The notes under the pieces are model-generated. The model did no database searches. It saw nothing but the letters and a program-made list of their open reading frames with translations, and was not told where the DNA came from. Of a stretch of DNA of 36,949 nt, positions 2,597 through 36,806 are shown one piece after another. The position numbers and the translations under genes are program-made. The DNA comes from a virus: positions 1 through 36,949 of IMG/VR virus record IMGVR_UViG_3300037247_001246; one strand, 5' to 3'. Numbering within the stretch: the stretch's first letter is position 1; each line of letters opens with the position of its first letter.

Positions 2597-2605
2597 GGTG
2601 TCCCC

Positions 2606-2728
2606 CTACTTGCTCAAGGCTGAGACGGCCAGGGAAAGCAGAACGAAGGGGGCAAAGCCTAGGGCGCAAAGCAGGACGATACCGCGGAAGACCGCGCTAT
2701 CCCACAAGTCTCTAATCAGTGTCAACAT
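2606..2728 (-). CDS. Small single-pass membrane protein (40 aa)
   Basis: An ATG at 2728 opens a 40-residue frame ending at 2606, just before the ribosome site of the next leftward gene. The sequence is a charged N-terminus (MLTLIRDLWDSAVFRG) followed by one long hydrophobic segment (IVLLCALGFAPFVLLSLAV) and a short end. Upstream ACGGGAAAATG offers a modest ribosome site. It would be the first gene of the leftward operon. A role at the membrane, such as exclusion or host modulation, is a guess from topology only. Confidence 0.5.
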   Translation of the reverse strand: MLTLIRDLWDSAVFRGIVLLCALGFAPFVLLSLAVSALSK

Positions 2729-2832
2729 TTTTCATTTTCCCGTTTTGGTTTTCGTGTCAGGTTGGAGTTATCGGATCGGACCCCTCGATTCTTGAATCTT
2801 TTCCTGTTTTATTTTCTGACAAGATTCTAGGT

Positions 2833-2853
2833 TTTTTTCTCAAGGTCGAGAGC
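2833..2853 (+). repeat. Direct repeat, left copy
   Basis: A 21-bp element, T6 followed by CTCAAGGTCGAGAGC, recurs at 3413-3433 with a single change (G to A after CTCAAG). The two copies bracket almost the whole repeat region. On the minus strand each copy reads CTTGAGA followed by an A-tract. Confidence 0.75.
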
Positions 2854-2887
2854 CGATCAGCCGAACGGGTTTCCAGGATTCTCGAAA

Positions 2888-2911
2888 GAGCATCGGTCTA
2901 TTCCGATGCTC
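2888..2911. repeat. 9-bp inverted repeat
   Basis: GAGCATCGG (2888-2896) and CCGATGCTC (2903-2911) are perfect complements around a 6-nt loop. No T-run follows on either strand, so an operator or a cruciform is more likely than a terminator. Confidence 0.6.
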
Positions 2912-2921
2912 CGATCGATAG

Positions 2922-2956
2922 GTGCGGTTTCGCACAGGGTGTGCGGTTTCGCTCAC
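2922..2956. repeat. Two outlying units of the GTGCG-GTTT-CGCAC dyad family
   Basis: GTGCG-GTTT-CGCAC (2922-2935) is a perfect dyad, and GTGCGGTTTCGCTCAC (2941-2956) is an imperfect copy. Both match the unit type of the large array at 3148-3334 about 200 bp away. Confidence 0.65.
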
Positions 2957-3088
2957 TGGGAAAGAAGGATTGCGGCGGTCCCTCTTAGGGACTGTCTCGT
3001 CTCCCCTTTTTTTTTTCAAGCTGTCATGGGAGCACGTGATAGGAAAAACAAAAAAAAACGAGTTCCAAATAGTGAAAGTTATTTTTTT

Positions 3089-3135
3089 CGAGTAGGTGGA
3101 AAAACGCCCAAGCAAAAATCGAGTAGGTGAAAAAC
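3089..3135. repeat. Direct repeat CGAGTAGGTG-A-tract
   Basis: CGAGTAGGTGGAAAAAC (3089-3105) recurs as CGAGTAGGTGAAAAAC (3120-3135), 31 bp apart, about three helical turns. Both are followed by a C/G-rich tail. Confidence 0.6.
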
Positions 3136-3147
3136 CGTCCGGCTGTG

Positions 3148-3334
3148 GTGCGGCTCAGGCTCAGCGTGCGGCTCAGGCTCAGGCTCAGCGTGCGGCTCAG
3201 GCTCAGCGTGCGGTTCCGCTCAGGTGAGCGATTCCGCTCAAGTGAGCGATTCCGCTCAAGTGAGCGATTTCGCTCATGATGTGCGATCTCGCTCAGTGTG
3301 CGATTTCGCTCAGGGGCGGGCGGTTCCGCACACC
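3148..3334. repeat. Array of about ten short dyad iterons
   Basis: Consecutive units start at 3148, 3166, 3190, 3208, 3224, 3242, 3260, 3281, 3298 and about 3320, each 15-24 bp long and most 16-18 bp. Early units read GTGCGGCTCAGGCTCAGC; later ones read GTGAGCGATTCCGCTCAA, in which TGAGCG and CGCTCA form a perfect 6-bp dyad around ATTC. The unit changes gradually across the array, as expected for iterons evolving by duplication. It looks like a multi-site binding region for an initiator or regulator. Confidence 0.8.
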
Positions 3335-3340
3335 AGAAAG

Positions 3341-3424
3341 AGGACTGTATATGCTCCCCTTTTTTTAGGACTGTATTCGCTCCCCTTTTTTTTAGGACTG
3401 GAAACTCATCCCTTTTTTCTCAAG
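3341..3424. repeat. Three tandem 26-27-bp units AGGACTG...CCC-T-tract
   Basis: Units at 3341-3366, 3367-3393 and 3394-3424 each begin AGGACTG and end in CCC or CCCC plus six or more T. A fourth, diverged copy lies at 2987-3016 (AGGGACTGTCTCGTCTCCCC plus T10). The T-tracts recur at 26-27 bp spacing, which may bend or ease melting of the DNA. Confidence 0.7.
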
Positions 3425-3433
3425 ATCGAGAGC
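3413..3433 (+). repeat. Direct repeat, right copy
   Basis: This is the second copy of the 21-bp element at 2833-2853 (20 of 21 positions equal). It ends about 20 bp before the first rightward gene. Confidence 0.75.
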
Positions 3434-3454
3434 TCAGCATCCGATAAGGCCCGC

Positions 3455-3655
3455 ATGGAAACCTGGAAAATCACCATCACGTTCGAGAACACCAACACCG
3501 GCACGCGCAAGAAGGTCAAGGCGCGCAAGGGCTTTCCCGACCTGACTCCGATCATCGACATCGACGACGAGCTGATCAAGGAGGCCTCGAAGCAGCTCCC
3601 CAAGGGGAACTGGGAGGCCGACCTCTCGAACCACAACGGACCAGAGGAGGTATGA
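3455..3655 (+). CDS. Hypothetical small protein, first gene of rightward operon
   Basis: The protein has 66 residues. The start at 3455 is preceded by GATAAGGCCCGC. The same frame is open back to 3224, but that stretch merely translates the repeat array and is rejected. The N-terminus predicts beta strands (TWKITITFENTNTG) followed by a basic loop and a helix (DDELIKEASKQLPKG). No family was recognised. Confidence 0.6.
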   Translation: METWKITITFENTNTGTRKKVKARKGFPDLTPIIDIDDELIKEASKQLPKGNWEADLSNHNGPEEV

Positions 3656-7280: not shown

Positions 7281-9983
7281 ATGACCAACATATCCTTGTC
7301 CGTCTTCCCCGACCAGCCGCGAAAGATGAAGGGGCTGGACTCGATCGACGACTCGGTGCGTCACGCTTTCGAGGTCGTCGACTTCATCAAGGGAATGAAC
7401 ACCGAGTGGGCTGGCGACGCTCACTTCGTCTGCTACACGGTCAAGGGTGAAGAGAGGTGGCCGAGGATCAACAAGACCGCGCTGCCCGGGCTGCTACGTA
7501 AGGGTGGCGTGGTTGAGGCGAACCTGATCGCTCTGGACTACGACTCCAACCTGAACGTCTCGGAGGACGTGTTGCAAGCGGCCGGCTGGGACGGCAGAGG
7601 CAAACTGCCGAAGGTCAAGTGGACGCCAGACCGACGCCGGGAGTTCGTCGACGCATTACGCAAGGTGCGTAGTGCATTCGAGGCGAGGGATCTCGCCTTC
7701 CCCTCGCTGATCTACTTCACCGAGAACGGCGCGCGGCTTGTGCATTTGTTGTCCGAGGGCGTGCCGGTGCAGGACGTAGAGCCGTTGATCCGCGGAATGA
7801 TCAAGGCCTACGGTGCCGCCGGCATGGTGATGGATCCGGCGTGCGTGGACTGGACTCGGTTCTTCCGTCTACCGAAGGTCATGCGTGACGGAGAGCCGAC
7901 CTGGACGAAGGACTACTACGTCTCGATCGAGGAGGACTCCTGGCTCGTGCCGCAGGCGATCGAGCCGGTAGGCAAGGAGCAGGCCTTAGACTACATCGAG
8001 GTGCCCGAGCTCGACGTCGACCAGCCAACGGCCGAGGCTGCGCGCGCGCTCGTCGAGACCCTGGTCGGCAAGGCGGTTCGCAAGACTCCGGTCTACCGGC
8101 GCGCGAAGGAGCGACTCTATCGCCGGGGCGCGGATCACTGTCACAACGTAGTCGTGCACCACGAGCCGATCGCGATCGAGGGACACCGCGACGTCAAGCT
8201 CCACGAGCTGATCGGGCAGGCGATCTGCCACCTCTACGACGTCGAGGGTGTGACGCCCCAGTTTATCTATGGACTGTTCTTGCCGAGCATCGAGCAGCTA
8301 GAGCCGGACCACGAGACACCTGACTGGTGCGGCAAGGCCTGGGACATGATCAAGCGCACCTGGCGCAAGGAGCAGGGAAAGGCGGAGCATCAGAAGCAGG
8401 TCGACGAGAAGGTCGCAGCGACTGAGGCCGACGACCTTCTCTCTCTGCTAGAGATCATGCGCGAGCACTATCCAAAGAGCAAGCTGCTGCACGCGGAGGA
8501 CGACGCTGTTGCGTTGCTGGAGCTGCAGCGCATGGGCATCATCATGACCGACGGCGACAACTTTCACGTGCTGCAGCGTGACGGCTTCTACATGAAGGAC
8601 AAGCGTAGCGCCGTGATGCTGCCCGGGATGGTTCGTGATCTCGGGATGTCGTTTTTGATGCCTCTAGAAAAGCTGGGAGCGAAGGGGGACATCATCCCTG
8701 TTGGAAGTGGTGACTTATTGCGTGACTACGGAAGACAAGTCGCGCGCGTCGTCGGACTCGCATGTCTGGAGGGTGCGCTCCTGGACCCCGAGGGCGCCCT
8801 CTTGATTCCTCTCTACCGACGCGCGAATCGACGGCCGATCTTTCACGAGGAGATCGACGCATGGCTTCGCCGTGCCACGACCCGCGAGGACTACAAGCGG
8901 TTGTTGAAGTGGCTCGCCTACGCGCTCGACTTCGAGGGCGGACCCATCTGCGCGCTTGTGCTTACTGGACTCCCAGACGTCGGCAAGAAGCTGATCTCTC
9001 GGGGCTTGTCGGAGTGCATCTTCGGCTCCCCCCAGCCTGGCTCAGGTGAGGACATCGTCGGCCAGTTCACGCCGGCCCTGCTGCAGACCCCGTTCATCGT
9101 GGTCGACGAGGGACTGCCAGTAGAACGCTTCGCGAAGAGGACCGCGGCCGACCAGTTCCGCCGCATGGTCTCGGGCGAGGGCATGAGTGTTGATCGGAAA
9201 TACCGGGCGGCCGTCGACGTGCGCAGCCCGGTGCGAATACTCTTTACGGCGAACAATCCCGAGATCGCCTTTAGCCTTATTGGGTCTCGAACCATGACGA
9301 AGCACGATCGCCTCGCCATCGGTCAGCGACTGCTGCACATACCCTTGCAAGCCGAGGCTGCGGCATACCTGCGCGCCAAGGGTGGGCGTCGACACACCGC
9401 GGGCTGGATCGCCGGTGACGCAGGCATGCTGTCCGACTACATCGTGGCCGAGCACTTCACGTGGCTCTACGAGAATCGTGTCGAGCAGTTCGGCCCAGCG
9501 GACATCGATCGCTTCCTGGTCGAGGGCAACCTCCATGCAGAGATCATCGAGGACATGCGTGCGTTATCAGGCGTGTCCCCAGAAGTCACCGAGGTCTGCG
9601 TCTACCTTGTCGAGACTCGCGAGCACATCGATCAGCTCAAGCCACTGATCGCGCGAGACGTCGACGACAATAACAACCCGGCCGTATACGTGACGACCTC
9701 GGCCGTGATCAACTACTACAAGGAGCACGGCAAGTTCGAGAAGCAAAGGAACTTCAACAACAGAAACGTCGGCATCGCCATGGAACAGGTTGCGGAACAC
9801 TGCAGCCCTGCAGGCGAAAAGAGGATCACTCTCGCCGGCAAGGAATCGAACCGCCTGCGATGGTGGAAGCTGGACCTGGAGTTTCTGCTGCGCTACGCCC
9901 GTAAGCACGGCCTGGAGTGTAGTAGAATGGAACAAATACTTGAGCCCCAAGAGCCCCAACATGAAGAACAGCAAGTGGGATAG
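7281..9983 (+). CDS. Primase-helicase (AEP-type primase fused to SF3-type helicase)
   Basis: This is a 900-residue replicative protein. The N-terminal primase region shows D86-Y-D88 (ALDYDSN), the NGARLVH motif with H155, and CVDWTRFFRLPKV with D190, the arrangement of archaeo-eukaryotic (PrimPol-like) primases. The C-terminal ATPase shows G563-LPDV-GKK570, a Walker B at FIVVDE (D609, E610) and the motif C/sensor SPVRILFTANNP (N658, N659), as in SF3/DUF5906-type phage helicases. The Walker A has Lys where Ser or Thr is expected after the catalytic lysine. The expected role is unwinding and priming at the origin. No Shine-Dalgarno site precedes 7281, so coupling to the upstream gene is likely. 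Confidence 0.85.
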   Translation: MTNISLSVFPDQPRKMKGLDSIDDSVRHAFEVVDFIKGMNTEWAGDAHFVCYTVKGEERWPRINKTALPGLLRKGGVVEANLIALDYDSNLNVSEDVLQAAGWDGRGKLPKVKWTPDRRREFVDALRKVRSAFEARDLAFPSLIYFTENGARLVHLLSEGVPVQDVEPLIRGMIKAYGAAGMVMDPACVDWTRFFRLPKVMRDGEPTWTKDYYVSIEEDSWLVPQAIEPVGKEQALDYIEVPELDVDQPTAEAARALVETLVGKAVRKTPVYRRAKERLYRRGADHCHNVVVHHEPIAIEGHRDVKLHELIGQAICHLYDVEGVTPQFIYGLFLPSIEQLEPDHETPDWCGKAWDMIKRTWRKEQGKAEHQKQVDEKVAATEADDLLSLLEIMREHYPKSKLLHAEDDAVALLELQRMGIIMTDGDNFHVLQRDGFYMKDKRSAVMLPGMVRDLGMSFLMPLEKLGAKGDIIPVGSGDLLRDYGRQVARVVGLACLEGALLDPEGALLIPLYRRANRRPIFHEEIDAWLRRATTREDYKRLLKWLAYALDFEGGPICALVLTGLPDVGKKLISRGLSECIFGSPQPGSGEDIVGQFTPALLQTPFIVVDEGLPVERFAKRTAADQFRRMVSGEGMSVDRKYRAAVDVRSPVRILFTANNPEIAFSLIGSRTMTKHDRLAIGQRLLHIPLQAEAAAYLRAKGGRRHTAGWIAGDAGMLSDYIVAEHFTWLYENRVEQFGPADIDRFLVEGNLHAEIIEDMRALSGVSPEVTEVCVYLVETREHIDQLKPLIARDVDDNNNPAVYVTTSAVINYYKEHGKFEKQRNFNNRNVGIAMEQVAEHCSPAGEKRITLAGKESNRLRWWKLDLEFLLRYARKHGLECSRMEQILEPQEPQHEEQQVG

Positions 9984-20012: not shown

Positions 20013-20581
20013 GCGATCGCGTGCTCGGAATCGGGATCGACCCCGACACAAAGAACTCGGGGATCGCCGTCGTCCAATACTCCAACCCGCTGGCGGATGG
20101 CCTCGGCTGCTACCAGATCGTGGAGGTGGCTCTTGCGCGCGCCCAGGGACGCAAGACGAAGGACCGACGGGTAGCCATGAGTAATGCACTGTGGACGACC
20201 CTGGCTGGCCTGGAGATCCCCTACGGAGTTGCAGTCGGTGTCGTCGAGTGGCAGGCCCTGCGACCCTACGGGGAGAAACGGCCGAATAACATCGTCGATC
20301 TCTGCGGGGTCGCTGGCATGGCGATCACTGCTCTGTCGCGTCACGTGTCGGCGACCACCTCAATCATCGCCCCGACGCCCGGGGACTGGACGAAGGGGCT
20401 CCCAAAAGAGGTGCGTGCGAACCGCATCATCCGACGCCTGCAGCTTTCCCCCGATCTGAAAGACTTCGAGAACATCCCCCCGTCGTTGCGGCATCACGCG
20501 ATGGACGCGGTCGGGCTGGCCGTCTGGGGAATCGATCTCGCTAGAACAGGTGGACTTCCGCCACCTCTTCCTTGGGTCTGA
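20009..20581 (+). CDS. RuvC-like Holliday junction resolvase
   Basis: This 190-residue protein has an RNase H-like fold with D11 in GIGIDPDTKNSGIA, E80 in VGVVEWQALRP and H163-x2-D166 in RHHAMDAVGLAVWG, the usual acidic set of RuvC enzymes. It resolves branched DNA before packaging and is a natural partner of the SF2 helicase and Cas4-like nuclease. It is ATGA-coupled upstream. Its last 41 bp overlap the end of the convergent gene at 20541-21113. Confidence 0.85.
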   Translation: MSDRVLGIGIDPDTKNSGIAVVQYSNPLADGLGCYQIVEVALARAQGRKTKDRRVAMSNALWTTLAGLEIPYGVAVGVVEWQALRPYGEKRPNNIVDLCGVAGMAITALSRHVSATTSIIAPTPGDWTKGLPKEVRANRIIRRLQLSPDLKDFENIPPSLRHHAMDAVGLAVWGIDLARTGGLPPPLPWV

Positions 20582-21113
20582 GAAGATCCAGCTCGCCCAG
20601 GAAGTCGACGATGCACGTCTCGATCTCCGCGATGGCGATCGGCGTGACCTCGGTCTGCAGCCCGCGGAGCCCAGCGGACTCGAAGAAGGGGTGAGGATCT
20701 GCCGGTCCGACGCGCTTCGTCATGATGATGCGCCCCTCGCGGACCAGCCGATTGAACTTTGACTTCGACAGGATCAGGCGACGGATGTCCGTCACTCGCA
20801 CAGGGTAGTTCCGGGAGCCCCCGTCGATGCGTGGATCCTCGTCCGGGTTGCTGAAGAAGACCATGAACTTCCCCTTCTGGATCGGACCACGCCCGTCGTG
20901 GTAGTAGATGGCCCAGTAGAAGGGAAGATGGACGAGGCCGTCGACCTGATCGGAGCCGACCTGCTCCAGGCGAATCTCCATGCTCTCGCGCAGCGCCTTT
21001 CCGCGACGACTGTCGGTCGCCAGGGCGAGGATGGCTGCTCGGGCCCGCCGGCGAGCCGCCTCGGCCGCTCGAAGGGCGACCTCGACCAGAACCTCCTGGG
21101 GGTTACATGCCAT
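20541..21113 (-). CDS. HK97 gp10-like head-tail/tail completion protein
   Basis: The protein has 190 residues on the minus strand, starting inside the end of the portal gene (11-nt overlap). A helical N-terminus with many Ala and Arg is followed by L-P-F-Y-W-A-I-Y-Y-H-D-G-R-G-P and, near the end, G-P-A-D-P-H-P-F-F-E-S-A. The order of a tyrosine strand, a charged loop and the PxxPFFxxA-type helix is that of HK97 gp10-like neck/tail proteins. It ends 41 bp inside the convergent resolvase gene. Confidence 0.55.
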   Translation of the reverse strand: MACNPQEVLVEVALRAAEAARRRARAAILALATDSRRGKALRESMEIRLEQVGSDQVDGLVHLPFYWAIYYHDGRGPIQKGKFMVFFSNPDEDPRIDGGSRNYPVRVTDIRRLILSKSKFNRLVREGRIIMTKRVGPADPHPFFESAGLRGLQTEVTPIAIAEIETCIVDFLGELDLLRPKEEVAEVHLF

Positions 21114-22530
21114 TGTGACCGATCATGGCGAGTTGAGACAGCAGCAGACGCGCCGGCTTGGACATCTTGTCGAAAGCCGACTTCTGCAGCCCGTCCGCGA
21201 TGTCACGATCCTCGGTCGCAGCCTGTCCCATGTCGTCCTTCATGCGTCCGACAGTATCCATCGGCCGCATCTTCTCCAGAGCCTCGCTGAGCTCTGTTAT
21301 GACCGTCTGCAGCTCGAAGTCCCCCGGCTTCAGCCCGAGTCCACCGTTGCGCGTGCTGTCGCCGAGAGTGCAGTCGAAGATCTCCTCGATCGTGTCCTGC
21401 TTCGGGCCGATCACTAACGCCTGGAAGGCGAGCACCGCGTTCGACAGCTCGTTCGTTGCGCCCATCTTCCCGGGGATCAGGATGCCGGCGAGCGCCGGCG
21501 GCACTCGGTGCGCGGACACGACATTCATGCTCAGCGCCTCGACCATGTTTCGGAAGAACTCTCCGTCCTGGGACTCGTTGCCGGCGAGCTTCTCTATCTG
21601 CACCTTGGCTTCGCTGCTGGGAATGTTGAGAGCGATTGACTTGTGAGTGTTGCCGAGACCGATCTGGGCTTTGAGAGAATCTTCGATCTTCTTCCAGTCT
21701 TGGTTGCGCAACTTCACGCCTATGACGAACAGCATGAACTCTGGCACACCTCTATTGAGATGAAAATCGAACTGGTGCTGCACCATGGCCTGCGCCAACT
21801 CGATGTAGGCAACAGCCGCGAGCCAGTTCGGCACACCGTAGTAGCGACTGAGCGCGCTCGGCTCTGGAAAGTGGATCAACTCGGAGTGCTTCCGTTTCGC
21901 ATCCTGTTCGGTGATCTTGTGACGCGCGAAGAAACCATCGAGATCTCCGAACTTAGCGAACTTCTTACCGATTCCCGAGGAGCCCTGGGAGGCGCTACCC
22001 CGATCGATGACCTCGAAGTGAAGATCATACTGATCGTTCTCGATGTTCACCCAGACATCGCGCGCCGGCATCCAGTGAAGGCCCGTGATTTTGGCGTCAG
22101 CTGACGGATCACTGCGCACTACTTCCAGGTAGGCGTTGCCAAGATTCTCGTAGTCCTCGGAGACCTGCAGCAGCGTGTGCTTCCACGAGATGTTGGTAAA
22201 GGGATTGAGCTTCTTGTGCGTCTCTTTCGAGACATGGCCCAGGCCGACGGTAGAGATCTTCTTCGCGTCGATGCAGGCAGAATGGTGCGGGTTAAACGCT
22301 TTGAACTCGGCTACCGCGTTGAAGTTGAAGGGACGAGACTTGATTCCCGAGGCAACGCCCTGCTTGCTGGACTCGTTCTCGGCAGCCGCCTTCATGATCG
22401 TCACCAGCAGGCCTTCACCTGCTTCGCCCAGGTCCGGATAGAGCGGATGGCCCATACCTGGGACAACTTTTACGGCGATCGTGTGCTCTGCGTCGGACTT
22501 CTTCGACGACTTTTTTGGGGTGCTGGCCAT
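21103..22530 (-). CDS. Phage portal protein
   Basis: This 475-residue minus-strand protein has GNAYLEVVR, a conserved H-F-P-E-P-S-A-L-S-R-Y-Y-G-V-P-N-W segment, and V-P-P-A-L-A-G-I near residue 345, features of the PBSX/P2 Q-type portal group. The portal is the dodecameric ring through which DNA enters and leaves the head. The start is preceded by AGGAGCTCCAAAAG. The gene faces away from the head gene cluster at 22672, which is unusual; a terminase gene was not found next to it. Confidence 0.85.
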   Translation of the reverse strand: MASTPKKSSKKSDAEHTIAVKVVPGMGHPLYPDLGEAGEGLLVTIMKAAAENESSKQGVASGIKSRPFNFNAVAEFKAFNPHHSACIDAKKISTVGLGHVSKETHKKLNPFTNISWKHTLLQVSEDYENLGNAYLEVVRSDPSADAKITGLHWMPARDVWVNIENDQYDLHFEVIDRGSASQGSSGIGKKFAKFGDLDGFFARHKITEQDAKRKHSELIHFPEPSALSRYYGVPNWLAAVAYIELAQAMVQHQFDFHLNRGVPEFMLFVIGVKLRNQDWKKIEDSLKAQIGLGNTHKSIALNIPSSEAKVQIEKLAGNESQDGEFFRNMVEALSMNVVSAHRVPPALAGILIPGKMGATNELSNAVLAFQALVIGPKQDTIEEIFDCTLGDSTRNGGLGLKPGDFELQTVITELSEALEKMRPMDTVGRMKDDMGQAATEDRDIADGLQKSAFDKMSKPARLLLSQLAMIGHNGM

Positions 22531-35123: not shown

Positions 35124-36806
35124 ATGGTTGCTGTTGACGTCACCCGCTATCCGTTTGAGACTCTAGCTCAGGCTATACCTACGGCCTTAGCAAGTCGTTT
35201 CACGAGCATGGCGATTGCCGAAGCCAATGCCGCTGATGACGCCGACGCCACCGTCGCGGTCACTCGCTACAGCTTCGAGACTCTAGCCGTTCAACTACCT
35301 TCAGTGGCTGCTGTCCCTCGCTTCACCAGCATGGCAATCGCTGAAGCCAATGCCGCTGATGACGCCGATGCCACCGTCGCGGTCACTCGTTACAGCTTCG
35401 AGACTCTGGCCCTTCAGGTATCACTTGCCCATGTCCCTCGCTTCACCAGCATGGCGATTGCCGAAGCCAATGCCGCTGATGACGCCGACGCCACCGTCGC
35501 GGTCACTCGCTCCAGTTTCGAAGTGCTCGCACCTCGATTCATCCAACTTGCGAGCACAGCCTTGCCTGGTGGACTCACTGAATACTTCGCCAACAACTGG
35601 GCCAACTCGGTCGAGATCGAGACCACCTATCGCACCGATATCACCAGAGGGGCGCAGTCTGTGGCCGAGGACCGGGTGCAGGTATGGGAGCGACCAGAGC
35701 GTGTGGTCAAGATGCGCTGGACAGAGATCGGTCCAGACGAGAAACAGAATCTAGAACGGCTTCTGACTCAGCTCCGACGCATGCAGGCGGAGCAGTGGGT
35801 AGTGCCTATCTATCCTGATCATCCTTGCGTCACAGAGGATGCTGCTTCAGGACAACCGATCATCAAGGCTGACGTCTCTCGCGGGCGCTTCTTCACCAAC
35901 ACACGAGTCCTCGTCGTGCCGATTCAGTGCGATGGTGACACGCAGCTGCCGGACGGCACGGGTCAGTTTCACTTCTCATCGATCGCGACGAAGGTCTCTG
36001 ATGAAGAGATCGTGTTGGCCGACGACCTCTCCTTCCCCGTGACTGCAAACATGGCGGTGATCATTCCGATGATCGTGGTGCACCCGAAGCTGCAGATCGA
36101 GATCAAGCAGCACCACAGCAGACTCTGGGATGTTACGTTGGAGTTCGAAGAAGTCAAAGGCACGACCACTCTTCCACCACTGCAGGATGATCAGCCTGAC
36201 AACTTCGATCAGTATCGCGGTATTCCGATCCTTCGCTCCCGACACAACTACAAGAATCCCTTGTCTATCGAACTGTTTCACGAGGGTGAGTTCGTCGACA
36301 TCGGACGCAGCAAGGCTGTGCATCTTCGCGGCGAGTTCGCTCGCGTTAAGCATCCACTGAAGTTCATCGAGAATCGTGAGATCGGCTGGGACTACATCAG
36401 CTTCTTCGATTCTCGACGTGGACGCTTACGCGCATTCTGGTTCATAGATCAAGAAGACATCTTCCGCATCGTCGACCTCACCTCGACGTTCATCGACATC
36501 GATCCGATCGGAGACTTCGCAGACTTTAACTTGGACATGGAGTTCTTCGGGTTCGAGATGAAGGACGGCACGGATTTCGTTCGTGAGATCACCACAATCC
36601 AATCCGTCGCTGGAGTCTTTAGGCTCACTGTGGCCGACACCCTACCCGCTCTAGATCCCAACGACGTCAAGTTGGCTGGCCGCGCCCATCTTACCCGCAT
36701 GCTCAAGGACTCTCTCATTGAAAAATGGCGACACTTCGATCTCGTCGAGTTGTCGATCCCGGTGATCAGTCTTCTTGAGGAGAAAAACGTAGATCTCACC
36801 CCATGA
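35124..36806 (+). CDS. Tail tip/baseplate-type protein with N-terminal repeats
   Basis: The product has 560 residues; no clear ribosome site precedes the ATG at 35124, which lies 3 nt after the upstream stop. Residues 1-140 consist of about 3.3 repeats of 40-41 residues (RFTSMAIAEANAADDADATV...TRYSFETLA). The rest is beta-rich: KMRWTEIGPDEKQNLERLL, then R-E-I-G-W-D-Y-I-S-F-F-D-S-R-R-G-R-L-R-A-F-W near 445, as in distal tail or hub-type proteins seen downstream of tape measures. The final gene overlaps by ATGA. The exact role is not certain. Confidence 0.6.
   Translation: MVAVDVTRYPFETLAQAIPTALASRFTSMAIAEANAADDADATVAVTRYSFETLAVQLPSVAAVPRFTSMAIAEANAADDADATVAVTRYSFETLALQVSLAHVPRFTSMAIAEANAADDADATVAVTRSSFEVLAPRFIQLASTALPGGLTEYFANNWANSVEIETTYRTDITRGAQSVAEDRVQVWERPERVVKMRWTEIGPDEKQNLERLLTQLRRMQAEQWVVPIYPDHPCVTEDAASGQPIIKADVSRGRFFTNTRVLVVPIQCDGDTQLPDGTGQFHFSSIATKVSDEEIVLADDLSFPVTANMAVIIPMIVVHPKLQIEIKQHHSRLWDVTLEFEEVKGTTTLPPLQDDQPDNFDQYRGIPILRSRHNYKNPLSIELFHEGEFVDIGRSKAVHLRGEFARVKHPLKFIENREIGWDYISFFDSRRGRLRAFWFIDQEDIFRIVDLTSTFIDIDPIGDFADFNLDMEFFGFEMKDGTDFVREITTIQSVAGVFRLTVADTLPALDPNDVKLAGRAHLTRMLKDSLIEKWRHFDLVELSIPVISLLEEKNVDLTP
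35196..35537 (+). repeat. In-frame tandem repeats of 123 and 120 bp
   Basis: Units begin at 35196, 35319 and 35439 (CGxTTCACxAGCATGGC...), spaced 41 and 40 codons. Most positions of the first 80 bp are equal, while the 10-12 residues after FETLA differ between units. A partial unit precedes at about 35127. Confidence 0.85.

Follow-up and report, generated by a model that had tools for sequence, protein, structure and literature searches.

A graded array of dyad repeats between divergent early genes as a candidate replication origin of an uncultivated phage

The gap and its repeats

The window analysed here is the whole of IMG/VR virus record IMGVR_UViG_3300037247_001246, an incomplete record (a fragment) of 36,949 bases. 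Near its left end a non-coding gap separates leftward from rightward early genes (Table 1). The gap heads a transcription unit in which the gene for a primase-helicase is reached 3.8 kb further along, while the 2.6 kb to its left code for proteins other than terminase. The original prediction had placed a repeat array in a gap between divergent early genes, 4 kb ahead of the primase-helicase, and the ORF map agrees, with the gap at 2597–3454 and the gene start at 7281. Elsewhere in the window, a leftward island of two genes (20541–22530; a portal-like ORF at 21103–22530 and an ORF at 20541–21113) lies amid rightward genes, and the portal-like ORF likewise runs against its neighbours in relatives, G001 and G007 among them. 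A tail-associated gene contains 123-bp tandem repeats at 35195–35521; the homologous gene of relatives contains 114-bp repeats.

Table 1. Genes and sequence features in and around the early-gene gap (window coordinates)
Feature	Position	Strand	Basis or remark
First leftward gene, 102 aa, no known family	2288–2596	−	ORF starts at 2596
Non-coding gap, leftward and rightward early genes either side; proposed origin and early control region	2597–3454 (858 bp)		ORF map
32-bp direct repeat, left copy (TTTTTTCTCAAGGTCGAGAGC...)	2833–2864	+	Family D6, 84% to the copy at 3413
Left-cluster unit GGTGCG-GTTT-CGCACA	2921–2936	+	Weight matrix, arm-pair check
Left-cluster unit TGTGCG-GTTT-CGCTCA	2940–2955	+	Pattern search, weight matrix
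Single GGGACTGTCTCGTCTCCCCTTTTTTTTTT repeat after the left pair, fourth T-tract copy	2988–3016	+	Repeat search, matrix scan
A/T-rich stretch, candidate unwinding element	3044–3103		Holds the start (3049) of the record's least stable 40-bp window
TCGAGTAGGTGRAAAAMCGYCC, two copies just upstream of the array, 22-bp pair	3088–3109, 3119–3140	+	Family D8
Units 1–3, GTGCGG + GGCTCA type, 18, 24 and 18 bp	3148–3206	+	Repeat searches
Units 4–10, TGWGCG-RTTY-CGCWCA	3207–3332	+	Starts 3207, 3225, 3243, 3261, 3280, 3297, 3317
Three 26–27-bp T-tract repeats AGGACTGTATWYGCTCCCCTTTTTTT	3341–3419	+	Repeat searches, stability scan
32-bp direct repeat, right copy	3413–3444	+	Family D6
First rightward early gene, 66 aa, no known family	3455–3655	+	ATG at 3455, in frame to 3655
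Primase-helicase, 900 aa, candidate initiator	7281–9983	+	AEP Prim-Pol N-domain, SF3-type helicase (DUF5906), probable winged-helix C-domain

Ten units arranged head to tail at 3148–3332 and two more at 2921–2955 emerged from direct reading and from repeat searches. The graded run of about ten units that had been predicted is therefore real, and the two outlying units, expected at 2922–2956, are present at 2921–2936 and 2940–2955. Units 1–3 are of the GTGCGGCTCAGGCTCAGC type, with an extra GGCTCA bringing one of them to 24 bp, while TGWGCG-RTTY-CGCWCA fits the seven remaining array units as well as the left pair; centre-to-centre spacings within units 4–10 are 18, 18, 18, 19, 17 and 20 bp. A perfect dyad had been attributed to the later units. 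This holds for three array units (3225, 3243 and 3261), but the other dyad-type units carry one or two arm mismatches. Arm pairing amounts to 4–6 of 6 positions in each of the nine dyad-type units, making them imperfect inverted repeats, and their spacers (RTTY or RTCT) all point the same way (9/9), which suggests that the units act as oriented direct repeats and not as palindromes alone. The pattern TGNGCG-N4-CGCNCA occurs eight times in the record, every time within the gap, whereas 200 Markov sequences contained it 0.17 times on average and never more than twice, and a weight matrix derived from the units scores 18–26 bits in the gap and at most 12 elsewhere in the record.

The gap also contains repeats that were not part of the original prediction: the T-tract repeats at 3341–3419 with their copy at 2988, the 32-bp repeat at 2833 and 3413, and the 22-bp pair at 3088 and 3119. 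Together, the repeats leave no more than 40 bp before the ATG of the first rightward gene (3455). When 40-bp windows of the record were compared in a nearest-neighbour scan, the four of lowest stability that do not overlap all fell in the gap (3049, 2789, 2698 and 3386), and a second low-stability stretch, at 3359–3425, overlaps the AGGACTGTATWYGCTCCCCTTTTTTT repeats. An iteron-type origin is expected to combine several similar direct repeats of about 17–22 bp in a single orientation with adjoining A/T-rich DNA that is easily unwound; the array provides the former and, by the 40-bp stability scan, its flanks provide the latter.

Two perfect inverted repeats lie near the left cluster: a 9-bp stem (GAGCATCGG-N6-CCGATGCTC, 2885–2908) to the left of the two units, which might be a leftward terminator or a structural element, and a hairpin, GTCCCT-CTT-AGGGAC (2978–2993), directly before the left T-tract repeat. 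The string TTTGGTTT at 2744, which we had taken to be a possible NrS-1 polymerase motif, was discarded: it occurs once in the record, where chance would give about 0.4 copies, and the literature searched did not contain it.

GC skew had been put forward as a check on the location of an origin. The detrended cumulative minimum of the window does fall close to the array, at 2559, yet it is weak evidence in a fragmentary record with divergent transcription at that point. The same two reasons make skew too weak to use in the records generally; in G008 the minimum lies 10.8 kb from the array.

Arrays at the corresponding gap of relatives

Megablast of the first 25 kb of the window against 50,697 phage genomes and tblastn with the primase-helicase gave no match, and IMG/VR single-protein scans with the primase, capsid and polymerase yielded no relatives. 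By sequence comparison the phage is isolated, direct searches having given nothing close, and relatives surfaced in IMG/VR only through helicase and capsid alignments. G001, at 55% identity and with collinearity between primase and tail, came up when the SNF2-like helicase was aligned with a distant homologue, and G007–G015 followed from there, while the capsid alignment led to G018, whose primase-helicase is 36% identical to that of the window. Eight of the relatives found in this way were aligned with the window primase-helicase or judged collinear by tblastn; G002–G005 are more distant and have only replication genes in common with the window. Two scans with the repeat itself were set aside: a single-iteron scan of IMG/VR returned 11 isolated matches, about chance level, and a tandem-dyad scan picked out L021, where the repeat is coding, and L022, a cyanobacterial contig; by tblastn, no relative of the window proteins is encoded in either.

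A repeat array is present at the corresponding gap in most relatives that have the region, with lineage-specific units of about 6–26 bp. In G003, a divergent gap of about 1.3 kb extends from the terminase genes to the primase and contains a 17-bp array (TCATAATGCKACACGAC), followed by three TCGAATTAAA-like A/T-rich decamers between array and primase. The G008 contig (55.6 kb) starts and ends inside a 19-bp array (CTCCGGCTCGCCTGCGGGG; L056:1–202 and L064:19516–19656), which suggests a circular genome broken by the assembler at the array; beyond the array lie two dyads, GGACT repeats, an A-rich tract and then the first rightward gene. In G007 the start of the contig cuts through a 13-bp array, after which come 14 A's and the first gene, and in G014 eight or more 26–27-bp units (TAGCAAGGSCCGTGCCAG) adjoin an A-rich tract. 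Clusters of TTGCCACA in G005, GTGGTACA in G002 and CATGGTC in G004 occupy gaps beside primase or helicase genes. G011 and G012 have no large array, their gap holding a dyad pair only, and the contigs of G013 and G010 end too soon upstream for an array to be judged.

These arrays were ranked in a scan for repeated words, defined as 8-mers over-represented in 400-bp windows. First place goes to the gap in G000, G003, G005, G008 and G014, and second place in both G002 and G004, the ranks of G008 and G014 not being independent tests because their gaps were chosen after the arrays had been seen; the gaps of G002–G005 were defined by position beside replication genes, and the rows for ctsHD2, G001 and G015, which have no defined gap, were left out. 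The single least stable 40-bp window falls in the array gap in G003, G014 and G007 also.

The best match to the iteron matrix in the 17 kb of G018 is TGTGCGCTTTCGCTCG (L078:3560), which scores 17.9 bits, the next match scoring 11.3. As the best of 30 simulated sequences reached 17.2 bits, there is modest support for TGTGCGCTTTCGCTCG as a degenerate iteron common to G018 and the window. The site is in non-coding DNA, and just downstream are GGACTGGACTCGC repeats (GGACTG) ending in GGACTGGAAA, and then the first gene; this order of iteron, GGACTG repeats and first gene is the same in the window, and the genes flanking the G018 site are not divergent. Conservation in relatives, the other check proposed for the array, thus gave a divided answer: the unit is absent from most of them, with one degenerate copy in G018, but the architecture is kept.

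G018 carries a second origin-like candidate at its contig edge (L078:1–930), where an array of CTCGCC hexamers gives way to about 900 bp that include a TA-rich stretch. Its early genes also include long 18-bp coding repeats (CAACGCCCGGGTCTACGG; L078:5092–7054) resembling those of hexapeptide-type repeat proteins, and similar 18-bp repeats occur in G008 (L064:17532–18037).

A candidate initiator and the function of the gap

The N-domain of the 900-aa primase-helicase models as an AEP Prim-Pol (best match 6zp9, Z 9.4, rmsd 4.6, 159 aligned residues). The SF3-type helicase was identified by profile (PF19263, DUF5906, E 8e-7, above the cut-off, with weak E1 helicase matches too), an assignment that stands on sequence profiles alone because the full-length AlphaFold model is poor across the helicase region (residues 531–765, pLDDT under 50). 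When folded with seven relatives, the C-terminal 144 residues gave a model with pLDDT 78, whose best structural matches, weak at Z 6.3 or below, are mostly winged-helix DNA-binding domains; the C-terminus is therefore modelled as a probable winged helix. Since the P4 α protein binds origin repeats with such a C-domain, the primase-helicase is, by analogy, a candidate initiator. Downstream of its gene, between 9983 and 10493, no inverted repeat of 18 nt or more, and hence no 3' stem-loop, was found. In G013 (L053:4687–9405) the primase-helicase and the downstream exonuclease form one open frame of 1572 aa, either a fusion or a sequencing error.

The direct repeats in one orientation, the low-stability flanks, the location in front of the replication operon and the recurrence in relatives lead us to lean towards a model in which the gap at 2597–3454 is a replication origin composed of iterons and a DNA-unwinding element, and in which it stands at the start of the early operon and probably shares DNA with its promoters. 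An initiator of the phage, which may be dimeric given that the 16-bp sites are dyads, would bind the direct repeats at 3148–3332 and 2921–2955, bend or wrap the DNA and open the A/T-rich stretches on both sides (about 3044–3103 and 3341–3425), whereupon the Prim-Pol/SF3 primase-helicase would be loaded. The primase-helicase may itself be the initiator, acting through its C-terminal winged helix. We infer that replication would start here, possibly with autoregulation, and the origin and the early control region may be one and the same DNA, as in other phages. The model is tempered by the fact that promoter-bearing gaps are often A/T-rich anyway. Arguing against an origin, the least stable part of the G008 record lies outside the array gap, the distance from array to primase varies from about 0.3 kb (G003) to 11.5 kb (G014), and G005 combines an array with a DnaB-like helicase instead of SF3, so that arrays do not track one initiator type.

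The original prediction had proposed either an origin or a multi-site operator; an origin-like control region fits the context, but the data do not separate the two. As an operator, the dyads would be bound cooperatively by a repressor or activator dimer that controls the divergent early promoters and has no role in the start of replication. Dyads of 16 bp suit a dimeric regulator, the genes on either side of the gap are oppositely transcribed, the repeats approach the first rightward ATG as closely as described above, and CTGCC-N5-GGCAG dyad pairs are found in the early gaps of G008 and G011. However, ordinary operators hold fewer than ten same-orientation sites, and the A/T-rich repeats beside the sites are better suited to an origin. 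Moreover, no regulator or repressor gene was recognised among the neighbouring ORFs, where the small early proteins are without families, and no sigma-70 promoter was found in the gap at 2597–3454. We consider a pure operator possible but rather unlikely.

Binding of the array by the small terminase, as a packaging recognition site (pac or cos region), is improbable. The small terminases of some phages do bind repeated sites, the gap directly adjoins terminase genes in G003 and G005, and the large terminase belongs to the leftward block across the gap in G007, G008, G011 and G014; in these four, however, it lies 2–9 kb from the array, no terminase was recognised among the window ORFs scanned, and low-stability repeats are no packaging feature. 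Some centromeres resemble tandem oriented repeats near early genes, and the array could in principle be the partition centromere (parS/parC-like) of a phage-plasmid, but the ORFs scanned in this incomplete record include no recognisable ParA/ParM-like or RHH ParB-like protein, and neither lysogeny nor plasmid genes were seen, making this function very unlikely. It is just as doubtful that the array acts as RNA, its transcribed hairpins serving to terminate transcription or to regulate at the RNA level. Either strand folds better than its shuffled versions (z −3.5 and −4.1), but dyad repeats fold well by construction, and the T-opposite-T arm mismatches at 2940, 3280 and 3297 are uncompensated, two grounds on which the RNA-hairpin reading was rejected; in addition, no terminator follows the array and there is no Rfam match.

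Comparison with known origins

In lambda, and also in Stx phages, oriλ consists of tandem O-protein iterons of about 18–19 bp that are imperfect inverted repeats beside an AT-rich tract (PMC7466680). The window units are likewise imperfect inverted repeats beside A/T tracts, but lambda's 4–6 iterons lie inside the initiator gene O, whereas the roughly 12 of the window are non-coding and form two clusters, and the window phage has its own primase-helicase and DNA polymerase. The origin of the ICP1 satellite PLE, a RepA_N system, resembles the gap as a non-coding region with several repeat families, which in PLE are needed for replication; among the proteins of the window, however, none was recognised as RepA_N. 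Both lambda and RepA_N replicons thus provide precedents for dyad iterons next to A/T-rich DNA (PMC7466680, PMC7145576), although the original prediction knew of no described phage iteron of this form.

The P4 α protein is a primase fused to a helicase whose C-terminal domain binds origin repeats (PMC4234260). The window protein is similarly a phage primase joined to an SF3 helicase, with a probable C-terminal DNA-binding domain in the model and with repeats at the candidate origin, but the P4 primase is of the Toprim type and the window N-domain an AEP Prim-Pol. Closer in domain order (AEP primase, SF3 helicase and, in the window protein, a probable winged helix) are the AEP-SF3-winged-helix replicases of pRN1 and Bordetella phage BIP-1, for which a stem-loop 3' of the replicase gene has been proposed (PMC4234260). 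The window gene differs in being without a 3' stem-loop and in having a repeat array upstream instead.

What is less ordinary here is that unit sequences differ among relatives that keep the layout, and that an AEP-SF3 replicase is linked to upstream repeats and not to a downstream stem-loop. We tentatively raise the possibility that the origin has kept its position and layout among relatives while its iteron sequence was swapped wholesale, and that the AEP-SF3 replicase uses the upstream iterons in place of a 3' stem-loop. If this were true, wholesale iteron replacement would signify that origin and initiator evolve together rapidly, possibly to keep origins exclusive when phages co-infect a cell. 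The turnover of units under a constant layout offers a natural series for how origin-initiator specificity changes. The origin reading itself, if right, would provide a testable origin for an uncultivated phage group with AEP Prim-Pol/SF3 primase-helicases and would contradict, for this group, the proposal that replicases of this kind as a rule come together at a stem-loop 3' of their own gene.
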